Source: an uncultured SAR116 cluster alpha proteobacterium
GTDB lineage: Bacteria > Pseudomonadota > Alphaproteobacteria > Puniceispirillales > Marisalimonadaceae
Length of the DNA: 64,000 nucleotides
Reading direction: 5' to 3'
Assembly (NCBI GenBank): GCA_902537945.1
Contig: CACBDG010000008.1
Span: 1-64,000, forward strand
The notes below the pieces were generated by a model. It did not search any database. It was not told where the DNA came from and worked only from the letters and a program-made list of their open reading frames with translations. Made by a program: the position numbers and the translations under genes. Shown piece after piece: positions 1 through 478 of this stretch; position 1 is the stretch's first letter; every line of letters begins with the position of its first letter.

Positions 1-64
1 TTTTATCTTATACAACTTAATAAAATAATAAACCTCTTTAAATATGAAAGAAAAGTGAAAGACA

Positions 65-301
65 ATGGAAAATACATTCTTAGCAAAATTAAATAACTAC
101 GTTACAACTACATTTGAAAAAATTGCTGTTATTAGAACAAGACAAGCATTAATAAGTTTAGATGATCGTACATTAGCTGATATTGGATATACAAGACAGC
201 AAGTATTAAACGGAGACTTCTTTAACATAACAGACGTAGTTGATTTTCCAGCTGGTAAGTTAGGTGTACAAAGTACAACTGAAGAAAAGAAAGCTGCATA
301 A
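65..301 (+). CDS. DUF1127 family small protein (CcaF1-like)
   Basis: The 78-residue product has the Arg-rich DUF1127 helix at about residues 24-47 (RTRQALISLDDRTLADIGYT), preceded by about 23 residues that look like the usual amphipathic N-terminus. DUF1127 proteins of alphaproteobacteria are small RNA-binding or regulatory proteins; in Rhodobacter sphaeroides the member CcaF1 is co-transcribed with the CcsR small RNAs and affects RNA turnover. Here the gene is directly followed by a two-hairpin CCUCC-loop RNA and a terminator, the same arrangement. The ribosome-binding site is weak (GAAAG). Any promoter lies at or before the left edge, so regulation (RpoH-dependent in Rhodobacter) cannot be judged. 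Confidence 0.88.
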   Translation: MENTFLAKLNNYVTTTFEKIAVIRTRQALISLDDRTLADIGYTRQQVLNGDFFNITDVVDFPAGKLGVQSTTEEKKAA

Positions 302-310
302 GGAATTTAA

Positions 311-446
311 GAATTAATATCCTATCCTCCTCCCCTGGATATTAATGAAAGATGGTGACATAACACAGAACTCATATCCTCCCCCAAGGTAGTCATTATG
401 TCATCGGAATAAGTAAGGACGAAGGACCCCATCCTTCGTCCTTTTT
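311..446 (+). ncRNA. Cuckoo/CcsR-like two-hairpin small RNA
   Basis: Two consecutive hairpins follow the DUF1127 stop. Hairpin 1 has a perfect 10-bp stem (313-322 with 337-346) and a 14-nt loop containing CCTCCTCCCC (326-335). Hairpin 2 has a 10-bp stem with one G-U pair (354-363 with 396-405) and a 32-nt loop containing TCCTCCCCC (377-385). A strong terminator ends the unit. This matches the description of the alphaproteobacterial Cuckoo RNA family (CcsR in Rhodobacter): paired hairpins exposing anti-Shine-Dalgarno C-rich loops downstream of a DUF1127 gene. That it is processed from the DUF1127 transcript is inferred. Only one copy is present, against four tandem copies in R. sphaeroides. 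Confidence 0.8.
415..446 (+). terminator. Strong intrinsic terminator after the DUF1127/RNA unit
   Basis: A perfect 12-bp inverted repeat (415-426 and 432-443) surrounds a 5-nt CCCCA loop and runs into five T residues (442-446). It is the clearest rho-independent terminator in the window and insulates the cupin gene downstream. Confidence 0.93.
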
Positions 447-449
447 CGT

Positions 450-478
450 TTGTATGTGTAGATTAAAAATATTATAGT
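450..478 (+). promoter_or_regulatory. Possible sigma-70 promoter of the cupin gene
   Basis: TTGTAT (450-455) and TATAGT (473-478) are separated by 17 bp, just after the terminator and 26 bp before the cupin start. The -10 matches 5 of 6 consensus positions and the -35 only 3 of 6. In such AT-rich DNA this could be chance, but a promoter is needed here because the upstream unit is terminated. Confidence 0.35.

Follow-up and report, generated by a model that had tools for sequence, protein, structure and literature searches.

A DUF1127 gene joined to a two-hairpin anti-Shine-Dalgarno RNA in SAR116 bacteria, conserved as a unit and probably present twice per genome

Does the short DUF1127 gene that opens this SAR116 contig form, together with the C-rich hairpins behind it, a regulatory unit comparable to those described elsewhere in the alphaproteobacteria? 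An association of DUF1127 genes with anti-Shine-Dalgarno (aSD) RNAs is reported as frequent in that class in the available part of one source (PMC10253847). The stretch analysed here, the window, comprises 64,000 nucleotides and starts at base 1 of its contig (G000:C8; assembly of 1.93 Mb, 75% complete), so that only 64 nt of leader are present. Its named protein matches come mostly from SAR116-cluster genomes, the best being 90-92% identical, and the host most likely belongs to that group. Handles for families, genera and genomes (f1, g1, G013) are working labels. The encoded 78-aa protein belongs to the DUF1127 family by its match to the PF06568 profile (30.4 bits, gathering cut-off 23.3), which spans residues 24-47 and leaves 31 residues C-terminal of the match. 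A ChrR-cupin-like gene (504-1031) lies downstream and is not part of the unit.

The sequence-only reading had described a DUF1127 ORF followed by two C-rich aSD hairpins with 10-bp stems and a 12-bp terminator, and this observation is confirmed (Table 1). In hairpin 1, bases 313-322 pair with 337-346, exposing CCUCCUCCCC within a 14-nt loop, UAUCCUCCUCCCCU. In hairpin 2, bases 354-363 pair with 396-405 around an interior of 32 nt, whose larger loop carries CCUCCCCCAAGG. Two details of that description had to be corrected: the second loop, claimed as CCUCCUCCC, has the core CCUCCCCC, partly closed by a conserved AAGG, and its C-run, claimed as open, is less so because a weak inner helix (370-372/391-393) and a CCU/AGG mini-helix (378-380/387-389) can form there. 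In the terminator, 415-426 pair with 432-443 and T's follow up to 446. The minimum free energy of 290-460 is -42 kcal/mol (z = -2.48), equalled by 3 of 200 shuffles.

Table 1. Features of the DUF1127-aSD RNA unit, in window coordinates.
Feature	Position	Strand	Basis
Partial 5' leader; the operator-like element of relatives falls beyond the contig end here	1..64	+	Contig position
DUF1127 protein, 78 aa, ATG at 65	65..301	+	PF06568; 64-92% identity across 20 relatives
Last 12 residues, predicted disordered tail ending Ala-Ala, candidate C-degron	codons 263..298	+	pLDDT, Ala-Ala in relatives
RNA element: two hairpins and terminator, presumed 3'-UTR-derived small RNA	302..452	+	Model R1
Hairpin 1, 10-bp stem, loop with CCTCCTCCCC (326-335)	313..346	+	
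Hairpin 2, 10-bp stem, C-rich loop CCTCCCCC (378-385), then AAGG (386-389)	354..405	+	
Intrinsic terminator, 12-bp stem and T-run	415..446	+	

Twenty-two units, the window's own included, could be aligned, all with the same order of DUF1127 gene, hairpins and terminator. Standard pairs fill 98.3% of the pair cells in these 22 sequences, against 26.9-53.2% when the partners are slid. Covariation of the stems in relatives had been named beforehand as a test of the earlier claim: 14 cells are changed on both sides against a shuffled mean of 4.8, and none of 500 shuffles reaches as many, a test weakened by kinship among the aligned sequences. A both-side change occurs in 4 of 38 pairs, a count reached by 12 of 500 shuffles, and further pair types are not above shuffles in the 22 sequences (450 of 500). 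One stem pair of hairpin 1 is C-G in 14 sequences and U-A in 8. The CCU/AGG mini-helix of hairpin 2 is retained in 97% of cells; one particular inner-helix pair does not form in 5 of the 22 sequences. The junction of a DUF1127 gene at its 3' end with an aSD-hairpin RNA and terminator is thus conserved as a unit whose stems co-vary.

A model built from the aligned rows, R1, gave 23 matches at E < 1e-20; of the 136 related genomes, 21 have such a match, and these are exactly those of g1 and g3 that have the DUF1127 gene (20 of 40 in g1, plus G041 of g3), and every strong match stands directly behind DUF1127. The remaining matches (E 4e-4 to 1e-2) mostly coincide with these sites on the other strand, as expected from the palindromic terminator; G047 (g4) and G031 also give weak ones. 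This exclusive position behind DUF1127 would suit a role in cis only, in which the hairpins shield the DUF1127 mRNA or terminate it and act back on how it is translated, with no free small RNA acting in trans; 3' hairpins commonly stabilise mRNAs. A protecting stem, however, needs no aSD loop, yet the loop cores of the 22 units vary less than the stems and are kept while these change.

Beyond g1 and g3, a strict aSD motif was scored within 130 nt behind the DUF1127 stop, other 130-nt stretches of the same loci serving as background. It is found behind all 23 distinct g1/g3 sequences (background 16/1250 stretches or 1.3%, duplicate loci included), 12 of 13 in g2/g4 (0/243), where there is a single hairpin with mostly a CCTCCTCCTC loop, 18 of 37 distinct DUF1127 genes in f2/f4 (7/530) and 8 of 73 in a class sample (27/1073). 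By sequence comparison, the aSD motif is retained in g2/g4 and f2/f4 while the remaining sequence diverges. Within the same 130 nt the strict motif is absent from 19 of the 37 f2/f4 genes and 65 of the 73 class genes; therefore DUF1127 does not need the RNA. Several of the motif-less f2/f4 cases are longer DUF1127 proteins. One class-sample locus, L089, carries a Rhodobacter-like array of 6 aSD hairpins in 320 nt behind DUF1127, and in f2 two CCTCCTCC hairpins follow the DUF1127 gene of L120 (G064). Paired close DUF1127 matches of equal open-frame length on G136:C64, G207:C44, G168:C1, G275:C1, G164:C13 and G273:C8 suggest two-domain proteins.

The f4 genus g17 bears on the cis-only explanation from another side. 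In all 8 of its loci examined (L065, L067-L070, L072, L073 and L076, of which L065 folds differently) the DUF1127 stop codon lies within the predicted aSD hairpin, the final codons forming one arm of the stem, and because the stop sits there a terminating ribosome would open the hairpin. This favours an effect of the hairpins on their own message. Against it, the window's DUF1127 leader has, by eye, just a weak purine-rich Shine-Dalgarno (SD) sequence, and NfeR1 acts in trans according to the available text of PMC10746234. I regard a purely cis-acting role as unlikely.

How close is the SAR116 unit to known RNAs? The reported Cuckoo RNA of Reinkensmeier and Giegerich (2015) is said to have 2 to 4 adjacent hairpins with variable stems, each loop being CCUCCUCCC. 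On that definition the SAR116 RNA resembles the family in its adjacent aSD-loop hairpins and variable stems, but differs from it in that the loop sequence is exact in hairpin 1 only, hairpin 2 having CCUCCCCC. The Rfam models for CcsR1 (RF02791) and ar14 (RF02344) have no match in window positions 1-64000 at the gathering score and none in 1-1000 even at E up to 10; neither is detected in L032, another unit of g1, with E allowed up to 0.5. As a control, L089 gave four CcsR1 matches behind DUF1127, whose scores of 43.9-52.0 bits (best E 1.8e-10) all stay under the gathering score of 65.3, and an ar14 match, again below the gathering score, while L120 gave a weak ar14 match (30.7 bits, E 0.016, gathering score 58.8). 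The covariance-model check of the CcsR proposal therefore came out negative, with models silent on the window that do detect the Rhodobacter-like locus, and by Rfam's models the unit does not qualify as a CcsR1 or ar14 member.

The arrangement is another matter. The CIN1-type order, in which the DUF1127 gene immediately precedes an aSD RNA of the same strand and both share a terminator, is found in 22 units. As in the CcaF1-CcsR1-4 locus of Rhodobacter sphaeroides, to which the L089 array offers a comparison, a short DUF1127 gene is followed on the same strand by an aSD hairpin RNA and a terminator, and to this extent the earlier comparison was apt. The available parts of PMC10253847 and PMC8625941 describe CcsR1-4 as products of the ccaF1 3' UTR, matured with the help of RNase E and CcaF1. 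Unlike that locus with its four tandem RNAs, the SAR116 unit has one RNA with two hairpins, a second loop with CCUCCCCC and AAGG, no match to the CcsR1 model, and probably two occurrences per genome; the CcaF1-CcsR promoter is reported as RpoHI/RpoHII, whereas the SAR116 upstream region looks sigma70-like by eye. Hairpins with a CCUCCUCCC loop are shared with ar14/NfeR1, NfeR1 having three in the available text and the window two. NfeR1 is there described as having a sigma70 promoter of its own together with an LsrB site (PMC10746234), whereas the window's RNA sits behind DUF1127 and the ar14 model is silent. The interpretation first offered is thus partly supported: by arrangement the locus is a variant of the CcaF1-CcsR/NfeR1 kind, and by analogy it may work like it. 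A literature search turned up no paper on such a unit in SAR116, and none of the matches listed mentions SAR116.

In g1 the unit occurs in two contexts, flanked by an MFS gene and the cupin gene (A) or placed before an EamA gene (B), and both are resolved in two genomes, G013 and G025. Although DUF1127 was not seen in 20 of the 40 g1 genomes, the idea that half of g1 has lost the unit was rejected on the evidence of the flanks. Of 27 genomes with the cupin gene, 14 have the unit upstream, 12 have a contig end at its place and the last, G001, has a contig end within the cupin gene; a close EamA homologue (at least 78% identity) occurs in 19 genomes, 7 with the unit upstream and 12 with a contig end there. 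Wherever a cupin or EamA flank continues, the unit is there. The 20 genomes in which no DUF1127 match appeared comprise 13 with such a contig end and 7 without both flank genes at E <= 1e-30. The cupin gene of G027, G013 and G001 (L249-L251) has one stop within each match.

Both loci are cut in nine genomes (G003, G010, G014, G015, G017, G020, G031, G032 and G035), and the offsets of the cuts behind the terminator, measured against complete relatives, match between the two loci: four genomes have about 55 nt at each, G017 has 49 nt at each, and in G010, G032 and G035 the two values differ by no more than about 3 nt. In G031 both contigs open with an identical 77 nt, inside hairpin 2. The matching offsets are therefore read as a repeat breaking the assembly. 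Breaks at the unit also occur in G009, G021, G022, G027, G023:C15 and the window's own genome, where the EamA contig (G000:C12) likewise ends about 55 nt behind the expected terminator; because it ends at the expected place, a second unit is likely there too. Two units per genome are most likely the rule in the genus, judging from these flanks and contig ends. The earlier claim of a single RNA copy consequently stands for each unit, which has one RNA, and is probably wrong for the genome. Because the repeat structure makes assemblies lose the unit, drafts undercount it, and little can be concluded when a draft genome lacks it.

Two loci alike within but unrelated in their flanks, at which assemblies break, could also be the mark of a mobile or repeated element whose similarity stems from copying rather than regulation. 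The same two loci, however, recur throughout the genus, no mobility gene was seen beside the unit in the loci read by eye, and the stems carry compensatory changes. Moreover, g2 also has the unit, there with a downstream protein that opens, by eye, like the locus-B EamA protein. A mobile element is thus very improbable.

In a tree of 18 units, with L045 assigned to B by its upstream gene alone and L038 having B downstream and a different upstream flank, A and B are not separated: the label changes 6 times (6-6 over the bootstraps), well-supported branches forcing at least 5 of these changes, and since shuffled labels average 5.8 the label is not clustered at all. The copies of G013 are 94.7% identical upstream, 94.1% in the ORF and 95.9% in the RNA, with unrelated flanks (22.8 and 36.3%), while the same locus compared across genomes gives 81-85%, 83-94.5% and 88-95.3%. 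On these figures only the upstream part is clearly closer within G013. The copies of G025 (75.3, 80.6 and 89.9% for upstream, ORF and RNA) give no evidence of such recent exchange. Sequence exchange between A and B copies is the likeliest reading of the tree.

Upstream, 19 aligned relatives have a 32-bp TTTCCA-N3-TGGAAA-YAATYATWTTCCATTTA or a close form of it before the ATG, and the g2/g4 genes are preceded by related sequence. At up to 3 mismatches the element occurs 19 times in 17 of the 40 g1 genomes (reversed control 0), each time about 87-118 nt upstream of a DUF1127 gene by coordinates, and no other site was found in the 40 genomes searched. In the other three g1 genomes with DUF1127 (G000, G023 and G030) the contig ends at the element's place. 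By these counts it is a conserved operator-like promoter element specific to DUF1127 in g1. Inspection by eye of the upstream alignment of the 19 relatives showed neither of the VtlR/LsrB promoter motifs published as CAATGCAGCCATGCA or TGCA-N6-GCAT (available parts of PMC12595884 and PMC10746234); TTTCCA-N3-TGGAAA stands there instead, and control by VtlR/LsrB gains no support from this. By eye, the leader of most aligned relatives also has a small GAAGG-N6-CCTTC hairpin, which is not intact in the window (about 35-55) and in L051.

The protein has a feature of its own in its last residues. A final Ala-Ala closes 22 of 22 distinct DUF1127 proteins in g1/g3, 10 of 10 in g2/g4 and 27 of 37 in f2/f4 (59 of 69 for the order), and 14 of 73 in the class sample; mechanically called control frames of at least 200 aa from the same loci have it in 0/37, 0/8, 0/21 and, for the class, 6/143, the kinship of the DUF1127 proteins making p-values rough. 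A looser pattern chosen after viewing the tails (a final AA or VA preceded by N-x-N, D-N or Q-N) fits 12/22, 0/10, 21/37 and 10/73, against 0/209 controls, g2/g4 thus not fitting. Tails such as VDNDNSRSAA resemble tmRNA tags. The tag could be read in 13 of 20 loci and is ANDNYAPVAAAA in 9 of 10 g1 genomes; in the window's own genome it is ANYNYAPVATAA, with which the DUF1127 tail STTEEKKAA shares just the final Ala-Ala. AlphaFold2 predicts three helices for the window's protein (mean pLDDT 74.4, pTM 0.51) and a disordered end of 12 residues (pLDDT < 50 for residues 67-78). Ala-Ala ends act as ClpXP signals, as in SsrA and CtrA, and the DUF1127 protein may be turned over rapidly through its tag-like tail, a resemblance that offers a direct test of turnover. 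Literature searches found no mention of DUF1127 together with ClpXP, nor, among the matches listed, with tmRNA, a degradation tag or SspB. In the class, Ala-Ala tail and aSD motif show no link (14 and 8 of 73, both in 2). A second DUF1127 type there has KPFWR-like tails (26 of 73), none with Ala-Ala.

I propose, at a probability of about 0.62, that the locus is a self-contained unit in which a dedicated promoter element serves one transcript for a DUF1127 protein and an aSD RNA that represses few mRNAs. The promoter element would drive a single transcript encoding the small protein and ending in an RNA of about 135 nt. RNase E would probably cut the A/U-rich stretch behind the stop codon and release this RNA, its 3' end shielded by the terminator hairpin. 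The aSD sequence would lie open in hairpin 1 and, in hairpin 2, be covered in part by the AAGG that follows it; by pairing with their SD region the RNA would repress a small number of mRNAs, hairpin 1 providing the main seed. The protein would probably aid processing or RNA turnover, as CcaF1 does. Against this, the DUF1127 protein YjiS of Salmonella showed no RNA binding, and the DUF1127 proteins of Agrobacterium act via PhoR; protein binding is thus reported for DUF1127 proteins other than CcaF1 (PMC12501420, in the part available).

Repression of mRNAs through the aSD loops is most likely by analogy with CcsR and NfeR1; NfeR1 loops silence ntrB via pairing at its start region in the available account (PMC10746234). 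In the window's genome AGGAGG-N3-10-ATG occurs 65 times against 60 in the reversed control, and GGGAGG-N3-12-ATG 33 times against 32. A genome-wide target class was rejected on these counts: because strong SD sites hardly exceed control counts in AT-rich genomes, broad repression is unlikely, it must be selective and few targets are expected. AGGAGG precedes one of 55 mechanically called window genes (DnaB-like, 42118), and the lowest duplex energy with loop 1 in the window falls at a FliG gene (62095; -10.7 kcal/mol); neither is claimed as a target.

Alternatively, the C-rich loops may bind DUF1127 or another RNA-binding protein, which the RNA would titrate. I know of no binding motif for DUF1127, which counts against this. 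The special AAGG loop maintained in hairpin 2 would fit a docking site, as would the finding that CcaF1 binds RNA and promotes CcsR maturation (PMC10253847, in the part available). Loop 1, however, is complementary to the SD sequence, as in NfeR1 with its demonstrated antisense pairing (available text of PMC10746234). Protein docking seems to me quite improbable.

Returning to the self-contained unit, its arrangement was known; new are the two-copy structure, the promoter element, the tag-like tail and the g17 stop codon in the hairpin. There is an outside chance that these belong together, with two dispersed promoter-DUF1127-aSD RNA copies exchanging sequence in SAR116, a protein degron resembling the tmRNA tag, and an RNA that senses ribosome supply. 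Where, as in some genera, the last codons and stop lie in the aSD hairpin, the end of translation would control loop formation and release. If true, ribosome availability, proteolysis and aSD repression would be linked through the unit. The DUF1127-aSD RNA unit now extends to a marine group with AT-rich genomes, and the single hairpin of g2/g4, the pair of hairpins in g1/g3 and the tandem array of the Rhodobacter-like L089 make a natural comparison series.
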